Virus record (IMG/VR): IMGVR_UViG_3300006928_003197
Coordinates: 1-24,311 of that record
Strand: one strand, 5' to 3'
Source of the DNA: a virus
DNA length: 24,311 bases
Positions within the stretch are counted from its first letter, which is position 1; each line of letters opens with the position of its first letter. Made by a program: the position numbers and the translations under genes. Shown here in pieces: positions 3,323-16,149 of the stretch. The notes beneath the pieces are model-generated. The model saw nothing but the letters and a program-made list of their open reading frames with translations, was not told the origin of the DNA and searched no databases.

Positions 3323-3402
3323 TGTTTGAATTTATCGTAGTTCTACTACTATTTTATATTGCAGTAAATATGAATAACAATACTAGACCACCGAGGTTTT
3401 AA
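3322..3402 (+). CDS. 26-aa single-pass membrane microprotein
   Basis: This open frame reads ATG to TAA and overlaps the preceding stop (TAATG at 3320-3324) and the uvdE start (TAATG at 3400-3404) exactly, so it bridges the two genes with no spare base. The product begins MFEFIVVLLLFYIAVNM, one hydrophobic helix, followed by a polar, Pro-containing tail. Such stop-start coupling on both sides argues that it is translated. It may be only a coupling leader that carries ribosomes into uvdE, or a true membrane peptide. Confidence 0.5.
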   Translation: MFEFIVVLLLFYIAVNMNNNTRPPRF

Positions 3403-4346
3403 TGAGAATTGGTTATGCTTGTATAAATATGCAACTATCATACCCACAAAAGTGGGGTGGACAAGAAAGAGGTGTAAAACCTATTACTACAGGTCGTAGT
3501 ATGATTCGTAGAACCTTTAATACTAAAGGTTTGGATTATGCTTCAGAAGTTACACTAAACAACGTAAAAGATTTAGATAAGATTATCGATTGGAATATTC
3601 TTAATGGGTATGATTTCTTCCGTATTACAAGTGGATTGGCTCCGTGGAAATCAGAATACAAATGGGATGATTTACCTGATATTGATGATATTAGAATGTG
3701 GTTACATTCAGCAGGTGAGAAAGCTAAGACACATAATATTCGTATCACATCACATCCAGGTCCATTCAATGTTCTTACATCACCTCACGAACACGTTGTC
3801 AAAAATTGTATTGGTGATTTGACAGACCACGGTGATGTTTTTGATATGATGAATCTTAGTAGAACACCATACAACAAAATCAACATCCACTTAGGTGGTG
3901 CATATGGTGATAAAGAATCTGCTATGGATAGGTTCTGTAAAAACTTTGAAAAACTGCCTGAATCAGTTCAGACACGATTAACAGTGGAGAATGATGATAA
4001 GGCTTCAATGTACTCAGTTAAGGAGTTGTACAATGGAATATATAAACGAATTGGCGTGCCCATCGTGTTTGACTACCATCACCATCGCTTCTGTAGCGGT
4101 AGCCTCTCAGAGCAAGAGGCTTTGGAATTGGCTATGTCAACTTGGCCCCAAGAGATAATACCTGTAGTTCATTATTCAGAATCACGTTCTATAGAACAAG
4201 AGGATGATAAGATTAAACCACAGGCACATTCTGATTATGTCTACGATTATATCGATACTTATGGTAATGTCGTAGACATAATGATTGAGGCTAAACATAA
4301 GGAATTAGCAGTTCGAAAATACAGAGAATTACATTATGCCAGCTAA
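3402..4346 (+). CDS. uvsE: UV damage endonuclease UvdE/UvsE
   Basis: This TIM-barrel, metal-dependent endonuclease nicks DNA 5' to UV photoproducts and other lesions, starting an excision repair route independent of UvrABC. At 314 residues it is full length for the bacterial/phage family. The family's metal-ligand series is visible in order and with normal spacing: H118 (in SHPG), H163 (in IHLGG), E196 (in VENDD), D224 and H227 (in DYHHH), H257 (in VHYSES) and E296 (in IEAKH). The opening RIGYACINM is also typical. Surface-ocean phages often carry light-damage repair genes, which fits the other accessory genes here. It starts in a TAATG overlap with the 26-codon frame upstream and overlaps the next small gene at its 3' end. 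Confidence 0.93.
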   Translation: MRIGYACINMQLSYPQKWGGQERGVKPITTGRSMIRRTFNTKGLDYASEVTLNNVKDLDKIIDWNILNGYDFFRITSGLAPWKSEYKWDDLPDIDDIRMWLHSAGEKAKTHNIRITSHPGPFNVLTSPHEHVVKNCIGDLTDHGDVFDMMNLSRTPYNKINIHLGGAYGDKESAMDRFCKNFEKLPESVQTRLTVENDDKASMYSVKELYNGIYKRIGVPIVFDYHHHRFCSGSLSEQEALELAMSTWPQEIIPVVHYSESRSIEQEDDKIKPQAHSDYVYDYIDTYGNVVDIMIEAKHKELAVRKYRELHYAS

Positions 4347-4458
4347 AAATAAAAAACTATCAAATGGTAAAGGTGATAGAAATCGTGTAGCTGATAAAAA
4401 AAAATACGATAAAAATTGGGAAAAAATATTTGGAAAAAAGAATGTTAAACGTAATTAA
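4336..4458 (+). CDS. 40-aa basic protein of the NGKGD(K/R) phage family
   Basis: A short gene (ATG 4336 to TAA 4456-4458) that overlaps the end of uvdE by 11 bases and the start of the deformylase by 17. The product has the pattern MPAKNKKLSNGKGDRNR, then an aromatic helix (KKYDKNWEKIFGKK). I recognise this as a very small protein seen in many tailed phages, with SNGKGDxxR followed by a tyrosine-rich segment and an acidic or aromatic end; its function is unknown to me. The overlaps, family likeness and Lys/Asn richness support a real gene. Confidence 0.65.
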   Translation: MPAKNKKLSNGKGDRNRVADKKKYDKNWEKIFGKKNVKRN

Positions 4459-5029
4459 TTGCTTAAAAGAAAATAATCCTGTAATAAACACAAAACTAAA
4501 AGAGGTAAGTATAGATGAAGGATTGGATATTGCGAAAGATTTATTCAATGTCCTCGCAGAACGGAAAGATGGTATTGGGTTGGCAGCTAATCAGATTGGT
4601 ATTGATGCTAGTGTTGCTGTGGTTAATGTTAAGGAACCTTTAATACTTATAAACCCTAAGATTATAAAGGTTTGGGATGAGATACCTTACTATGAGGGTT
4701 GTTTGTCGTACCCAAGAAAAGGTATTCAAACAAAACGATATAAAAATATTATTATAAAAACTGCACAAGAGGATTCAGATTGGTACTTTAGTGGAGCAGA
4801 GAATCCAAGTGATGGTAAAGGTAGTTGGGAAGAAACAAGTAGTAAAAAAGAAGATGATGAAAGAAGATTACTTGAAGCTATATGTGTTCAACACGAGATA
4901 GACCACTTAAATGGTATGACTATACACGATAGGCAAATGATTACCACGATAACTACTCAAGATAAAGTTGGAAGAAACGATCCTTGTGATTGTGGTAGTG
5001 GTAAGAAATTTAAAAAATGTTGTATGTAA
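4442..5029 (+). CDS. def: Peptide deformylase with C-terminal SEC-C zinc motif
   Basis: Removes the formyl group from the initiator methionine of new proteins. All three family motifs are present: motif 1 GIGLAANQ (residues 44-51), motif 2 EGCLS (85-89, metal ligand C87) and motif 3 HEIDH (151-155, ligands H151/H155 and catalytic E152). Between motifs 2 and 3 there is an acidic, Ser/Gly-rich insertion (about residues 107-140) not usual in the core enzyme. The C-terminus adds a SEC-C type motif (C182, C184, C193, C194), a zinc module otherwise found on SecA and assorted proteins. I prefer ATG 4442 to the in-frame TTG at 4430. Marine phages often carry deformylase, thought to sustain turnover of photosystem or ribosomal products. 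Confidence 0.92.
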   Translation: MLNVINCLKENNPVINTKLKEVSIDEGLDIAKDLFNVLAERKDGIGLAANQIGIDASVAVVNVKEPLILINPKIIKVWDEIPYYEGCLSYPRKGIQTKRYKNIIIKTAQEDSDWYFSGAENPSDGKGSWEETSSKKEDDERRLLEAICVQHEIDHLNGMTIHDRQMITTITTQDKVGRNDPCDCGSGKKFKKCCM

Positions 5030-10626: not shown

Positions 10627-10655
10627 TTGACATTAATATCAAAAAAGTATTAAAT
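10627..10655 (+). promoter_or_regulatory. Sigma70-like promoter with upstream A-tract
   Basis: TTGACA (10627-10632), a 17-base spacer, then TTAAAT (10650-10655), with nine A residues immediately upstream (10616-10624). The block from the A-run through TTGACAT and an AT-alternating start of the spacer matches the promoter at 2931 closely. It lies 47 bases before the 3D-domain gene and would drive the DNA-modification and gp55 genes. Confidence 0.6.
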
Positions 10656-10701
10656 TTAGAGAAATATGAACATATTTATAAACAACAATAGAGGTAATAC
10701 T

Positions 10702-11220
10702 ATGCGAAAGCTATTAGTAAGTGTTATGACTGTAATGCTAGTTATTATTAATGGTTTAGTTAGTGTGAAGTTTATTGAAAAGAACAAACACACTATGAAA
10801 GAAATGCTCGATGTGGTGGTACAAGAACGAGATGAGTTGAAGTTACAACTTAAAGAATACGAGCAAAATGGAATAGAAGTGGATGTTACAATGTATCATC
10901 CAGTTACGCAACAGACAGATGCTACACCGGACATTCTGGCGGATGGAACGCGAATAAAAATCACTAAAGCTAGTGAATATAAGTTTATAGCGGTGAGTAG
11001 GAATCTTCTGAAGCGTTGGGGGGGTGCATTAAACTTTGGCGACTTTGTGCTTCTACGAGGAACAAAAAATGGTGCAAAAGATGGCGTCTATCAAGTACGA
11101 GATGTTATGAATGCCCGTTTTGTGAATCGAATAGATGTATTAGAATCACCAGGTGCTCCACCATATAAATTTACGGATGCTAATATCGTAAAGTTAGATT
11201 GGGTTAGCACTAATAAATAA
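10702..11220 (+). CDS. Membrane-anchored 3D-domain protein (cell-wall-active candidate)
   Basis: ATG 10702 with AGAGGT upstream gives 172 residues; an ATG at 10666 in the same frame would add 12 but lacks a good ribosome site. The order is a signal-anchor helix (about 3-24), a coiled coil (about 32-52), and a C-terminal double-psi beta-barrel of the 3D type: TMYHP, a DGT turn, EYKFIAVSR, FGDFVLLRG, then GVYQVRDV-MNARFVNRIDVLE, where the Asp residues give the domain its name. Related domains occur in MltA, RlpA-like and Sps/YabE-like muralytic proteins. A periplasmic peptidoglycan role in lysis, anchored in the inner membrane, is the natural inference. The cysteine-poor sequence and lack of a catalytic partner domain leave activity open. 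Confidence 0.75.
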   Translation: MRKLLVSVMTVMLVIINGLVSVKFIEKNKHTMKEMLDVVVQERDELKLQLKEYEQNGIEVDVTMYHPVTQQTDATPDILADGTRIKITKASEYKFIAVSRNLLKRWGGALNFGDFVLLRGTKNGAKDGVYQVRDVMNARFVNRIDVLESPGAPPYKFTDANIVKLDWVSTNK

Positions 11221-11242
11221 AAACAAAAATGTAAGGTTATAA

Positions 11243-12442
11243 ATGGAGTTATTCGAAAACTTTTTCGAGGATCCAGATAAGTTCATCTACGAAGATGAAA
11301 AGCAGAAGTTCATAGAACATATGGATTTTTTGAAAACTATGAGTGTCCAAGAATCTACACTTTATAAGAAGTGGAAAGAGTTTAATCATAACGACTATGA
11401 GATTAGACAAAAAGCTAGCAAGATTCATACGATTAAACCTAAGTTATGGAAACCAACAAACTTATCGGATAGAGAAACAACACTAGCAGAGATACAATCA
11501 ATAAAACCAAAAATCATTCCAATCAAACAAGGTGATTCAAGACAGAATGAATATTGGACTCTTATTCGTAGACTTATTCATACGATGGAGTTTACAGCTA
11601 ATCCAGGTAGAAACGTAAAGTTTATTGTTATGGATGAGACAAGTAATAAGATACTTGGTGTTATATGTTTTGGTTCTGATGTTATAGCTATTAGTGCTAG
11701 AGATTCTTACATTGGTTGGAGTAAAGATAATAAATTAACCGATGGTAAATTAAAAAACTCTACTATAGCTACAACTATATGTTCTACACAACCATTTGGA
11801 TTTAATTTCTTAGGTGGTAAATTAATCGCAGCATTAATATCTACTAAAACGTTTAGAGAACAATGGGAAAAGTTATATGGAGAAAAGTTAGCTGGAGTTA
11901 CAACTACATCACTATATGGTATACACTCTATGTACAATGGTATTCCTTATTGGAAAACACTTGGTGAATCTGCTGGTAGAATCTCATTAAAGCCTGACGA
12001 TGATTTCTTTCAGAAGTGGCACGATTGGTATAAAGATAATAAATCAGAAAAGTATGCAAAACACATACAAAGTAAAGATAAGGATTCAGGTCCTGTTACA
12101 GGTGTAAAACAAAGAATACTAAATCTTATATTTCAAGAGTTAGGGATAAGGACAACTGCATATGAACACGGATTTAAACGTGGCGTATTCTACCTAACTT
12201 ACTATGAAAATAGTAGAGAATATCTAAGAGGTGAGATATCTGAAAGTGAGTTAAAGTTAAAACCAAGATTTGAACAAGACATAGATGGTGTTATGGATTG
12301 GTGGAAAAAAAAGGCTTGTAAAAGATATGAAAAGTTGTTAACTTCCGGGAAGTTAAAAGATGATATTTTATTCTATGGAGATATCATAGGATTAGATTGG
12401 GAACAAACAAGAGAAAAATATATAGGCGAAGTTGGAAGATAA
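11243..12442 (+). CDS. DUF4338 (DruA-like) family protein
   Basis: The 399-residue product carries the DUF4338 core at about residues 95-250: LGVICFGSDVIAISARDSYIGW (strand, then R-D and G158-W159), a long central segment (PFGFNFLGGKLIAALIST), REQWEKLY, and closing YWKTLGESAGRI (A244-G245-R246). DUF4338 includes DruA of the Druantia anti-phage system, whose biochemistry I do not know to be settled. The N-terminal 90 residues and the helical C-terminus (WWKKKACKRYEKLL) are extra and basic, compatible with DNA binding. It overlaps the Mom-like gene by 11 bases, so the two products are likely made together. I infer a DNA-directed role in base modification or its protection. The family assignment is by pattern memory, not search. 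Confidence 0.7.
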   Translation: MELFENFFEDPDKFIYEDEKQKFIEHMDFLKTMSVQESTLYKKWKEFNHNDYEIRQKASKIHTIKPKLWKPTNLSDRETTLAEIQSIKPKIIPIKQGDSRQNEYWTLIRRLIHTMEFTANPGRNVKFIVMDETSNKILGVICFGSDVIAISARDSYIGWSKDNKLTDGKLKNSTIATTICSTQPFGFNFLGGKLIAALISTKTFREQWEKLYGEKLAGVTTTSLYGIHSMYNGIPYWKTLGESAGRISLKPDDDFFQKWHDWYKDNKSEKYAKHIQSKDKDSGPVTGVKQRILNLIFQELGIRTTAYEHGFKRGVFYLTYYENSREYLRGEISESELKLKPRFEQDIDGVMDWWKKKACKRYEKLLTSGKLKDDILFYGDIIGLDWEQTREKYIGEVGR

Positions 12443-13052
12443 AGTTACAGATTATTTTGTAGAAAAAGTACCTACAAACGCAATAGAAGATTTTGTTAGA
12501 AAAAATCATTATTCAAAAAGTGTAAGAGGTTTACATATCAGTTATTGTTTCGGATTATTTTCACCAAGTGGAAAGTTTGGGATACCAAAATTAATTGGTG
12601 CTATGATGTTTGGAATACCAGCTATGGCTGGTGTTGCAGAAAGTTATATGCCAGAAACACCAGATAGAGTTATAGAATTAAATAGACTTTGTTGTATTGA
12701 CGATACAGTCAAGAATACAGAAAGTTACTTTATTGGTAAAGCCATTACTTGGTTAAAAAAGCATACAAATTACAAGCTTATTCTGTCCTATGCGGATACT
12801 TTTCAAGGACACGAGGGTGTTATATACAAAGCAACTAACTTTATACATTTAGGAATGACAAAACCGAGTAGGATGTTGATAGCTGATGGTGAGAAGTATC
12901 ACGCTAGGATGTTAACTAAAAAAAGTCCTAAATTTGAAAATATTAGACAACGTATGAAAAAGGGTGATGAGAATATTTGGACTGAACCACTACCACCAAA
13001 ACATATCTATATTTTACCATTGGATAAAAAGACAAGGAAAATATTTTCGTGA
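12432..13052 (+). CDS. Mom-like DNA base modification protein (GNAT fold)
   Basis: 206 residues resembling the phage Mu Mom family, which alters adenine in DNA so that it resists restriction. Visible Mom-like features: N25-H26-Y27-S28 near the start, a central strand-helix unit ELNRLCCIDD (82-91) then KNTESYFIGKAITWL (94-108), SYAD at 119-122, GHEG at 126-129, and IYKATNFIHLG (131-141), which together make the acetyltransferase-like fold. No ATG or GTG is available in a sensible place; the start is a TTG inside the end of the DUF4338 gene. The stop overlaps the GTG of the glycosyltransferase (GTGA). In Mu the mom gene is tightly controlled; here only translational coupling is visible. Confidence 0.75.
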   Translation: MEDKVTDYFVEKVPTNAIEDFVRKNHYSKSVRGLHISYCFGLFSPSGKFGIPKLIGAMMFGIPAMAGVAESYMPETPDRVIELNRLCCIDDTVKNTESYFIGKAITWLKKHTNYKLILSYADTFQGHEGVIYKATNFIHLGMTKPSRMLIADGEKYHARMLTKKSPKFENIRQRMKKGDENIWTEPLPPKHIYILPLDKKTRKIFS

Positions 13053-14392
13053 ATATATTAAATTTTACAAAAGATAAGACAAGCGATAAAGAGTATAAGT
13101 ACAATGTACTCGTATATCCGAATATAACATATCAACAAGACTTAGAAAAAGATTCTTATGTAGTAGTATTATGTAATATTATTAGGGAGTTAAATAAGAT
13201 ACGTGATGATATACATTTTACAATATTTTCACCACATCATATTAACAGCTTAGATTTTCCTAATACAGAACAATTAGTATTACCACTACCATCATATCCA
13301 AATGCTATGAGAACTCATTTTGATTATGATACAATAGTAAAAGCATTACAATGGAAAAAAAGAGACTATGATATTGTGTATTCTCATTTACCTGAACATA
13401 CTTTACAACTAAAGAATGCAATTATAAATAATACAAATATGGAACCAAGATTTATTGGGTACACCCATTGGACTGAATTTCCTGAGATTACAAATTATAG
13501 TATGACTATGATGGATGTAAACTTCTTGGGTATTTTAGAGATGGATAAATGTGGTATAAATACACAAGGACAGAAGAAGTTAATTTTAAAAAATGCTAGA
13601 AGCCATTTTAATGATAAAGTAGTTAAAAGGTTAGATGAGATTCTTGAACCACAATATCTTGGTTGGGAGATTCCAAAATACGAGAATCAAACTACAGATA
13701 AAAAGATTATCGTATTCAATCACCGCCCTCATACATACAAAAATTATCCGTGGTTTTTAGAACAAATGGATAAACTTTGGGAACAAAGAAAAGACTTTGA
13801 GGTATGGGTTCCACTTGCAGATTCTACTGAGGGTAGAGAATATCTAACAAATGATAAATACGATAGATTCGGATATTTCTCTAAGTTATCTTCTTGTTAC
13901 ATTGGTGTATGTGCGAAACAAAAGTATAGTGGATGGGCTGTATCAGCTACTGATGGTATGAGTGTAGGTGTTCCTTACTTATTTTTAAATGCTGATTACT
14001 ATTGTGAACTTGCAAGTTCTGCAGGTATCTACTATGATAACAATAACTTCTTAGAAAAGTTAGAAGAGGTTTTAGATGATGTATCAATTAGAGAGGATTA
14101 TTCTAAACGTTCATTAGATAGATTTGAAGAGTGTAAGTGGGAATCTGCAATAACTCAGTTCAATAATATGCTTGATGAAACAATATTAAATTTAAAAACA
14201 ATAAAACAAAAAACAGATAGCTACAAAAAAATAGTTGATTTTATTCATACGAAAAAATCAGTTACTAAGAAAGACATTATCGAACACTTAGGTTGGGGTG
14301 TTAGAATAGGTTTTAGTGGTTATAGAAATAAACTTAGACAAGAACCAACTATTAAATTCACAAAGGATAGATATGAAACAACTAACAGCTGA
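13049..14392 (+). CDS. GT-B glycosyltransferase with C-terminal helix-turn-helix-like domain
   Basis: 447 residues, starting with GTG in a 4-base overlap with the Mom-like gene. The N-terminal Rossmann half (YNVLVYPNITYQQD, then YDIVYSHLPEH, then RFIGYTHWTEFPE) and C-terminal half (KKIIVFNHRPHTYKN, FEVWVPLAD, YIGVCAKQKYSGWAVSATDG, GVPYLFLNADYY) form the two-domain GT-B layout with a nucleotide-sugar site in the second half. Residues about 396-443 add a small winged-helix-like unit (KKSVTKKDIIEHLGWGV, GYRNKLR, then a strand pair). A sugar transferase with a DNA-binding-like tail beside a Mom-like protein suggests DNA glycosylation rather than surface polysaccharide work. The sugar and acceptor are unknown. 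Confidence 0.75.
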   Translation: MNILNFTKDKTSDKEYKYNVLVYPNITYQQDLEKDSYVVVLCNIIRELNKIRDDIHFTIFSPHHINSLDFPNTEQLVLPLPSYPNAMRTHFDYDTIVKALQWKKRDYDIVYSHLPEHTLQLKNAIINNTNMEPRFIGYTHWTEFPEITNYSMTMMDVNFLGILEMDKCGINTQGQKKLILKNARSHFNDKVVKRLDEILEPQYLGWEIPKYENQTTDKKIIVFNHRPHTYKNYPWFLEQMDKLWEQRKDFEVWVPLADSTEGREYLTNDKYDRFGYFSKLSSCYIGVCAKQKYSGWAVSATDGMSVGVPYLFLNADYYCELASSAGIYYDNNNFLEKLEEVLDDVSIREDYSKRSLDRFEECKWESAITQFNNMLDETILNLKTIKQKTDSYKKIVDFIHTKKSVTKKDIIEHLGWGVRIGFSGYRNKLRQEPTIKFTKDRYETTNS

Positions 14393-15164
14393 ACAAATCC
14401 AAAAGAATTGGGAACAACTTCGTAACTTGATTTCCAATACATTTGAGGGTGAACGTTTAGATAAACTGAATACGATGTACGATTATTTTGAAGATAGAAT
14501 GTGTATGGCTCCAGCGAGTGGTAGAGAACAATTTCACTACGCACATATTGGTGGTTATGTAGAACACGTTTTACACGTTATAGATTGTGCACTAAAGGTT
14601 ATGAATCTTTGGGCAGCAGAGGGTGCTAGGGTTAACTTCACTACAGAAGAAGTTATCTTCGCAGCTATGCATCACGACTTAGGTAAGGTTGGTGATATGG
14701 ATAAAGATTACTATGTTCCACAAGAGAGTGAGTGGCATAGAAAGAATCGTGGTGAGATATTCACACATAATGGTGCATTACAATATATGTCGGTTACTGA
14801 TAGAGCAGTATTTTTACTTAATCAATTTCAGATTCCTATGACAGAAAATGAGTACATCGGTTTACGATTGGCAGATGGTTTATATGAAGAGGCTAATAAG
14901 TCTTACTATATGTCTTATAATCCTGATTGGGCTTTGAAATCAAATATCGCATATGTTATACATCAAGCAGATATGATGGCTACTAAGATTGAGTACGATG
15001 AGTGGAAACGTAGTATAGAGGTGGAAGAAGAAGAGCATAAACAGAAGTATCAGAAGATGGTAGGTGTTCTAAAAACTGATGATAAGCAGGTGGAGAAGAA
15101 AGAAGATAAATTAGGCTCTAAATCTAAGGATTTATTTAAAGAACTATTTGGAGATGATGTATGA
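14373..15164 (+). CDS. HD-domain phosphohydrolase
   Basis: From ATG 14373, with AAAGGA just before it and inside the end of the glycosyltransferase gene, the product is 263 residues. The HD signature is complete: an upstream His (IGGYVEHVLHV), H101-D102 (in MHHDLGK), and a distal Asp in HQADMMATKIEYDEW, which together bind divalent metals. HD proteins remove phosphates from nucleotides or cyclic nucleotides. In a phage beside base-modification genes, a nucleotide-pool function such as a 5'-nucleotidase or dNTPase is plausible, as is defence evasion through signal-nucleotide cleavage. The C-terminus is a highly charged helix ending KSKDLFKELFGDDV. Its stop overlaps the next ATG. Confidence 0.85.
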   Translation: MKQLTAEQIQKNWEQLRNLISNTFEGERLDKLNTMYDYFEDRMCMAPASGREQFHYAHIGGYVEHVLHVIDCALKVMNLWAAEGARVNFTTEEVIFAAMHHDLGKVGDMDKDYYVPQESEWHRKNRGEIFTHNGALQYMSVTDRAVFLLNQFQIPMTENEYIGLRLADGLYEEANKSYYMSYNPDWALKSNIAYVIHQADMMATKIEYDEWKRSIEVEEEEHKQKYQKMVGVLKTDDKQVEKKEDKLGSKSKDLFKELFGDDV

Positions 15165-15409
15165 TATTTGAAATTATATTAGGTATTTTACTTGTTATCG
15201 AGGGTTACATTATATGGAACTTAATGCGTAAAGCTGAAACCTTAGAAACTTGGATTGATACCTTATCTGATAAAATAATGAGTACCCAAAGAATTATAAA
15301 AGAAATAGATTCTACAGGTCACTTTGAAGCAGATGATGAAATAGGAACAATCTTTGATGGAATCAAGGATACAGTAAATGAATTAAATAAAGCAATAGAA
15401 AGAGAGTAA
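15161..15409 (+). CDS. Small membrane-anchored protein, conserved next to gp55 in marine T4-like phages
   Basis: 82 residues with one N-terminal membrane helix (about 2-21) and a helical cytoplasmic part ending in GHFEADDEIGTIFDGIKDTV. That acidic motif is familiar from short cyanophage proteins of unknown function. It overlaps the HD gene by ATGA and is followed after three bases by gp55. The anchor plus acidic helix would let it tether a soluble partner to the inner membrane, but the partner is not shown. Confidence 0.65.
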   Translation: MIFEIILGILLVIEGYIIWNLMRKAETLETWIDTLSDKIMSTQRIIKEIDSTGHFEADDEIGTIFDGIKDTVNELNKAIERE

Positions 15410-15412
15410 GAA

Positions 15413-16120
15413 ATGGCAAGAGGTAAAATATATTTTGGACAACCAACTGAAGATGCTATCATCGAATACAATGCTGAAGAAAGTCCAATAGTTAGAAACC
15501 AAATCTACAATGAGAGAATTAGAAAACCATTGGAGAAGTTGTGTGAAAACATTATCCATACATTTAAGTTTTACTACTTTGATGTTCCAAGTGAAGATGT
15601 TAAACACGAAGTGGTTTCTAACCTTATTATCAATATGCATAAGTACAAACAAGAAAAGGGTAGAGCTTTTTCATACTTCAGTATAGTTGCAAAAAATTAT
15701 TTAATTCTTCATAATAATAACAACTACAAGAAGATGAAACAGCAAAATGATATTCAAGTTGCTGATTTTGAAAGAAATATTCAAAACGAATTAGGTGATG
15801 AAAAATATCAAGAGGGTAATTCAGAATTACTAGACTTCTATTGTGAGTACTTAGAAAACAATATCTCAAATATCTTTACAAGAAAGAAAGATATTGATGT
15901 TGCTTATTCTGTATTATATCTTTTACAAAATCTACACAATATAGAAAACTTTAATAAAAAGTATTTGTATTTGCAGATACGAGAGATGACAAGTTCTAAT
16001 ACTCAACATATCACACGAGTTATAACTCAGTTAAAGAGATATTTTGAAGAAATAAAACTTGAGTTTTACACTAAAGGTGAAGTGGATACATCGTTTACAG
16101 GCTCATTTTTTGATGCATAA
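15413..16120 (+). CDS. 55: Late sigma factor, T4 gp55-like
   Basis: A 235-residue protein matching the gp55 family: a minimal sigma factor that, with sliding clamp and co-activator gp33 in T4, redirects host RNA polymerase to late promoters. The sigma region 2-like core is visible at about residues 35-105 (PLEKLCENIIHTFKFYYFDV, HEVVSNLIINMHKYKQEKG, then RAFSYFSIVAKNYLILHNN). No region 4 is present, as expected for gp55. The C-terminus (SSNTQHITRVITQLKRYFEE) fits a helical segment before the clamp-binding tail; the end is Phe-rich (TSFTGSFFDA), compatible with a clamp-binding peptide. It is the last gene before a strong terminator, so it would end the early/middle transcript and open late transcription of the baseplate genes beyond. 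Confidence 0.8.
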   Translation: MARGKIYFGQPTEDAIIEYNAEESPIVRNQIYNERIRKPLEKLCENIIHTFKFYYFDVPSEDVKHEVVSNLIINMHKYKQEKGRAFSYFSIVAKNYLILHNNNNYKKMKQQNDIQVADFERNIQNELGDEKYQEGNSELLDFYCEYLENNISNIFTRKKDIDVAYSVLYLLQNLHNIENFNKKYLYLQIREMTSSNTQHITRVITQLKRYFEEIKLEFYTKGEVDTSFTGSFFDA

Positions 16121-16149
16121 AAAAAAGGGGGGAATAAATCCCCCCTTTT
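16119..16149. terminator. Strong bidirectional intrinsic terminator
   Basis: G6 (16127-16132), a 7-base loop AATAAAT, and C6 (16140-16145) are flanked by an A-run on the left and TTTT on the right. The stem extends to about 10 bp with A-T pairs, and the sequence works as a hairpin plus U-run on both strands. It sits between the gp55 stop and the 3' end of the only minus-strand gene, so it would end both convergent transcripts. Confidence 0.9.

Follow-up and report, generated by a model that had tools for sequence, protein, structure and literature searches.

Positions 11243 to 14392 of a 24,311-base IMG/VR virus record (IMGVR_UViG_3300006928_003197; the whole stretch is called the window here) probably form an island that modifies the DNA bases of a large T4-like marine phage after replication. 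The island encodes a DUF4338/DruA-family protein (DruA), a Mom-family DNA modification protein (Mom), and a GT-B glycosyltransferase (GT) with a winged-helix-like tail; DNA modification is suggested by the gene neighbourhoods of dozens of related phages. DruA and GT are a stable, mobile pair, and their recurrent pairing, with Mom, DNA methyltransferases, and replication genes as neighbours, leads to a testable idea—that DUF4338 acts on DNA bases or nucleotides. To our knowledge, DUF4338 has no established biochemical role. The island also reveals a large family of phage GTs with a DNA-binding-like tail that appears to be undescribed, and the interchange of modifiers and GmrSD-like nucleases in its variable slot would be a source of new DNA chemistries and anti-restriction counter-defences.

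The initial annotation had proposed a DNA hypermodification cassette of four genes. Its DUF4338, Mom, and GT-B components and the helix-turn-helix (HTH)-like tail have stood; membership of the HD hydrolase and a fixed DruA-Mom-GT trio have not.

Gene Layout and Island Borders

The features of the locus are collected in Table 1. The four overlapping open reading frames (ORFs) were re-found at exactly the coordinates first given, with overlaps of 11 bases (DruA/Mom), 4 bases (Mom/GT), and 20 bases (GT/HD). A chance pile-up of ORFs was ruled out, as the order recurs in five more contigs at 77-100% identity. A single promoter had been assumed for the four genes; however, promoter-like matches were not above those in shuffles (29 vs 34.6). 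The sole good upstream promoter-like match, TTGACA-18-TAAATT at 10627-10656, lies ahead of the gene preceding the cassette (termed 'pre'), and the first strong terminator-like hairpin lies 3' of the sigma-like gene. Judged from these signals, the transcription unit is probably 10666-16120; it would thus be wider than the four genes, with the cassette co-transcribed with its flanks.

Table 1. Features of the island and its flanks, with positions in the window.
Feature	Positions	Strand	Basis
'pre', upstream flank gene, left border of the variable island	10666-11220	+	PHROG 21574, E=4e-9
DUF4338/DruA-family protein, 399 aa	11243-12442	+	PF14236; PADLOC DruA1; GNAT-like AlphaFold2 (AF2) fold
Predicted acyl-CoA loop of DruA, Q183-x-x-G-x-N...GGKL	11789-11824	+	AF2 model; conservation
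Mom-family DNA modification protein, 206 aa, TTG start	12432-13052	+	PF25680; PHROG 1384
GT-B glycosyltransferase, GT4-like, retaining-type fold, 447 aa, GTG start	13049-14392	+	AF2/Foldseek
Winged-HTH-like tail of GT, residues 390-444	14216-14380	+	AF2 secondary structure
HD-domain phosphohydrolase-like protein, 263 aa from ATG	14373-15164	+	PHROG 28876
Small TM-like protein (TMp)	15161-15409	+	Order kept in nearly all HD loci
Late-sigma-like protein	15413-16120	+	Order kept in nearly all HD loci; weak PHROG 1740, E=0.009
Terminator-like hairpin, symmetric	16123-16149	.	11-pair stem, 6 G-C pairs, T-run

The variable island sits between 'pre' and HD, and its content differs by phage. Most variants read DruA-slot-GT; others have DruA alone (L112, L113, L115, and L117), GT and slot without DruA (L110, L116, and L119), or larger sets (L123-L131). 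The 'pre' gene, whose product is small and conserved with an N-terminal hydrophobic segment, keeps the same position in many HD-context loci. The HD protein is divergent—it matches PHROG 28876 'metal-dependent phosphohydrolase' at E=2e-11 and falls under the Pfam cut-off—and its open frame extends back from the ATG at 14373 to a GTG at 14316. HD had been counted as a member of the cassette, but this was ruled out by a core HD-TMp-sigma module that occurs without DruA, Mom, and GT in about 25 contigs (L136-L160) and in Flavobacterium phage immuto, all among HD-seeded loci. Baseplate genes come after this module in immuto, and HD is missing from the loci in which DruA and GT lie among replisome genes. 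Elsewhere in the window, 3402-4346 encodes a UvdE-type UV endonuclease, and 4430-5029 a peptide deformylase with a C-terminal SEC-C motif.

The Mom Protein

The Mom-like identity proposed for the middle ORF is borne out by PF25680 (E=3e-40; 138 bits against a Pfam cut-off of 27.1; profile positions 2-191 of 202) and PHROG 1384 (E=1.7e-53). Its profile also matches the phage Mu Mom structure 8bv8 (E=7e-26); the conserved core E, R, S, D, G, Y, and N positions align with that structure, and E82, S119, D122, G129, Y132, and N136 are common to Mu Mom. Mom is a GNAT-superfamily enzyme (PMC7824862).

Genome-wide, Mom was found in 14 of the 18 long GT/DruA records (28 copies) and in none of 16 control records, a set that includes immuto and two Pelagibacter phages and is small, related, and of less total sequence than the GT/DruA set. 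In the long records, Mom often comes as two tandem copies 0.1-3 kb from GT. One record holds three Mom-family genes (L120:2280-12433), in the order DruA-Mom-x-GT-HD-TMp-sigma followed by an 834-aa ORF, Mom, x, and Mom; in the genome search, one of its Mom copies reads through one TAA.

The DruA-Family Protein

Assignment of the first ORF to DUF4338 was upheld by PF14236 (E=4e-29; 102 bits, far over the cut-off of 27; profile positions 9-297 of 297), and the PADLOC DruA1 profile also matches the product (E=3.6e-27). The AF2 model (pLDDT 84.8) contains a strand at 173-181, the residues Q183-P-x-G-x-N and GGKL, and a helix at 191-198, which is the layout of a GNAT acyl-CoA loop. Across 25 phage homologues, Q183, G186, N188, G191, G192, K193, and H228 are invariant. 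The top PDB matches of the model in Foldseek are all GNAT acyltransferases, with probabilities up to 0.99 but modest E-values (3e-3 or above); a sequence search found no relative of solved structure. By its predicted structure DruA has a GNAT fold, in agreement with a published analysis that classes DUF4338 as a GNAT domain (PMC10853773). DruA and Mom are both GNAT-like, but sequence homology between them could not be shown, as hhalign gave nothing significant with either shallow or deeper alignments. The best of these weak alignments lies just past the predicted fifth strand. The lack of demonstrable homology and the modest Foldseek E-values both count against the island reading.

A DruA-family protein inside a phage modification cassette had been called notable. 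The presence of such a protein in a phage is not unique, as T4-like Pelagibacter and Synechococcus phages carry one among their replication/recombination genes. Pelagibacter phages Mosig and HTVC008M have DUF4338 near gp46/gp47, and Synechococcus phage S-SCSM2R has it flanked by clamp-loader genes. Neither GT nor Mom adjoins it in these phages, and Mosig and HTVC008M have no Mom anywhere. Cyanophage DruA-like proteins are also among those already reported in the Phold paper (PMC12774648). These settings count against the island reading, as DUF4338 among such genes without GT or Mom may serve replication generally, so that the role of DruA may be replication and not modification.

The main rival to a modification island therefore makes DruA a replisome accessory, for example one that acylates a replication protein or aids fork repair; only Mom and GT would modify DNA, and their proximity to DruA would reflect a shared late/replication operon. 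We consider this rather unlikely. It is favoured by the phages above, by the island variants with DruA and no GT, and by a replisome group of loci in which DruA sits between the gp44 clamp loader and a gene of 231 aa that is called clamp-like from its position alone. In the HD context, however, DruA lies away from replication genes and yet keeps its pairing with GT.

Two further observations concern the spread of the family. The BFVD holds giant-virus proteins (Faunusvirus, Yasminevirus, and Dasosvirus) with DruA-like predicted structures (E-values of 9e-19 to 2e-9), which suggests that DUF4338-like proteins extend to eukaryotic viruses. In the records of L015 and L017, a second, partial DUF4338 match lies beside tandem Mom genes (G005:121832-122200 and G006:26475-26843).

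The Glycosyltransferase and Its Tail

By sequence, GT gives only weak matches (Glycos_transf_1, E=6.5e-4, under the Pfam cut-off); no relative of solved structure was found by sequence search, and tblastn gave no match among 50,697 records of isolated phages. An AF2 model built from 37 sequences (pLDDT 89.9) has 395 PDB matches at E<=1e-3 in Foldseek. The best is 7qsg (E=1e-14), and further matches include MshA, BshA, PimA, and a 'phage HY126 glycosyltransferase' (9iqz). As modelled, the product is clearly a GT-B enzyme of GT4 type with two Rossmann-like domains; R226, D302, G307, and P309 are invariant across the 37 homologues.

The C-terminal HTH-like unit noted in the initial annotation is likewise seen in the model. 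The tail (pLDDT mostly above 88) consists of a helix at 390-402, a strand at 404-406, helices at 407-414 and 423-429, and strands at 435-437 and 441-444; this predicted H-E-H-H-E-E order is the topology of a winged helix-turn-helix. Its conserved motif is SVTKxxI..LxWGxRIxFxxYRNRLR, of which the WGxRIxFxxYRNRLR part is basic. A profile of the tail gave 128 domain matches, every one within GT-family proteins; no other protein of the fetched loci matched it, and neither did any PDB sequence. Short GTs of the replisome group have no tail.

The fold also bears on the target of the enzyme. Most PDB relatives of GT by fold are small-molecule or polysaccharide enzymes, which counts against the island reading, and jumbo cyanophages have GT clusters for surface sugars (PMC7824862). 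GT could then act on host or virion surface polysaccharide or on protein, its neighbours being unrelated. We regard this as very unlikely: no recognised sugar-nucleotide or multi-GT polysaccharide cluster lies alongside, the winged-helix-like tail is present, and the neighbours are DNA methyltransferases, Mom, TET-associated glycosyltransferase (TAGT), nucleases, and DNA polymerase.

Linkage of DruA and GT

In all 16 long records with both genes (38-167 kb), GT is a single match 0.8-3.6 kb from the main DruA; two of these records also contain a further, partial DruA match. Among 24 GT-seeded loci, dereplicated at 90% identity and with at least 3 kb upstream, 21 have DruA within 5 kb of GT. These counts are descriptive, given that the records are mostly fragments and in many cases related, and that the seeds were taken from these loci.

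The pair occurs in two unrelated genomic contexts—upstream of HD-sigma, and around DNA polymerase B, the clamp-like gene, and gp44 (gp43/gp45/gp44). A tree of 60 GTs built with IQ-TREE requires at least four changes of the replisome-context label on well-supported branches; the GT of one Mom-Mom-GT-polB-clamp-like-DruA-clamp loader locus (L045), for example, nests among HD-context GTs. One inherited gene order does not explain linkage that persists across two contexts and at least four changes between them, which argues for a functional linkage of DruA and GT. Of the proposed DruA, Mom, and GT set, the DruA-GT pair is stable, but the trio is not fixed; Mom takes the middle position only in the window clade and L120.

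The Variable Slot

The slot separates DruA from GT or directly adjoins GT, and its occupant varies among relatives. Where the window clade and L120 have Mom, other loci have a D12-class adenine methyltransferase (L251, E=4e-25), an N6_N4 methyltransferase (L293, E=1e-34), a PLOD-type GT domain (L121:1670-2425, E=1.6e-36), a second GT-B (L265), a HATPase protein (L075), or one of several unassigned families. The slot of the L123-L131 group holds an N6_N4-like methyltransferase, TAGT, and PALP-family proteins. These PALP-family (pyridoxal-phosphate) proteins adjoin DNA methyltransferase, GT, and TAGT genes (L125:1320-2066 and relatives), and are a possible step in a hypermodification pathway.

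Another occupant is a family with GmrSD_N in six of its eight members, by matches that are individually sub-threshold, and HNH in at least four, the HNH signature being present in the family alignment. Its proteins adjoin GT at L084:749-2404, L086:4234-6000, and L123:1634-3319, and in relatives; such a type IV restriction-like family is odd in a phage that may have sugar-modified DNA. Exchange among DNA modifiers and modification-dependent-type nucleases is as expected of a locus in an arms race.

The nucleases raise another reading of the locus, that of a phage-borne anti-phage or superinfection-exclusion module (Druantia-like, with slot nucleases) that does not serve self-modification. The PADLOC DruA1 match, the GmrSD-like and HNH/homing-type slot genes of relatives, and the published view of phage Mom-nuclease fusions as weapons against rivals (PMC7824862) all point in its direction; however, the slot of the window holds a modifier, Mom, and no nuclease, and no defence role is known for GT or Mom alone. 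A DruE-type helicase (MZB/DUF1998, PF09369) is absent from the record, while eight control genomes were positive in the same search, and a whole Druantia system was ruled out on this basis. We consider the anti-phage reading highly improbable.

Proposed Function

Under the modification-island reading, we infer a substrate, chemistry, order of steps, and purpose from the families, folds, synteny, and DruA-GT mobility described above. The island would sit inserted ahead of the HD-TMp-sigma core module. As a member of its family, Mom would move a small acyl-derived group onto N6 of adenines in phage DNA. GT, brought to DNA by its C-terminal winged helix, would glycosylate the replicated genome at a base or base adduct, and the GNAT-fold DruA would work with it. 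In what is the weakest step of the scheme, DruA would most likely act as an acyltransferase on DNA, producing or priming the acceptor for the sugar at the replication fork or behind it. Virion DNA would thereby become refractory to host restriction. From phage to phage, the content of the DruA-GT slot is exchanged for other DNA modifiers or for nucleases of the modification-dependent type.

The nature of the sugar acceptor deserves separate consideration. T4-type DNA glycosylation requires a hydroxymethylated base. Thymidylate-synthase-type enzymes (PF00303) were found in 2 of 18 fragmentary records and Tet_JBP (PF12851) in none of the 18, in a search that gave no match in controls either; this scarcity of acceptor-making enzymes speaks against the island reading. 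If hydroxymethyl-base synthases are indeed nearly absent, the sugar may be placed on a group that Mom or DruA has installed. This case, which we consider unlikely, would be a two-step, acyl-then-sugar modification: GT would sugar a group first put on the base by Mom-/DruA-type GNAT enzymes, not a hydroxymethylated pyrimidine, and DUF4338 would be a DNA acyltransferase family of which the Druantia DruA is a defence offshoot or the source.

Comparison with Known Systems

The middle gene belongs to the same family as Mom of phage Mu (PF25680, 8bv8) and of the 'momylation' described in jumbo phages, and its conserved residues match Mu Mom. Mu Mom is encoded with com; the partners of the window Mom are instead DruA and GT. 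In jumbo phages, Mom typically occurs as a fusion with restriction endonuclease domains (PMC7824862), whereas the window Mom has no such fusion.

Like the T4-type alpha-GT and beta-GT and the Mosigvirus arabinosyltransferases, the window GT is a GT-B enzyme of T4-like phages, lies near replication genes in one of its contexts, and is proposed to act on DNA after replication. In contrast to these enzymes, it has an extra winged-helix-like tail, no sequence match to a DNA GT of solved structure was detected, and a dCMP-hydroxymethylase-type gene is missing from most records with a GT of its type. TAGT (PF20691) cassettes are a further point of comparison—TAGT genes occupy the same variable slot in related phages, but the window has no TAGT and the 18 records searched have no Tet_JBP oxygenase.

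With Druantia type I the window shares a DruA-family protein, which is over the Pfam cut-off and matches PADLOC DruA1; the window has no DruE-type helicase, and its DruA lies in a phage modification/replication locus. The cyanophage DruA-like proteins are of the same family and from T4-like marine phages; linkage to Mom or GT is not reported in the part of that paper that concerns them (PMC12774648). A search of the open-access literature gave no account of Mom together with GT or of the DruA-Mom-GT combination, and neither this family of GTs nor a modification island with DUF4338 was described there. The parts of the island are thus of known kinds; the combination, the GT family, and the place of DruA in the combination appear to be new.
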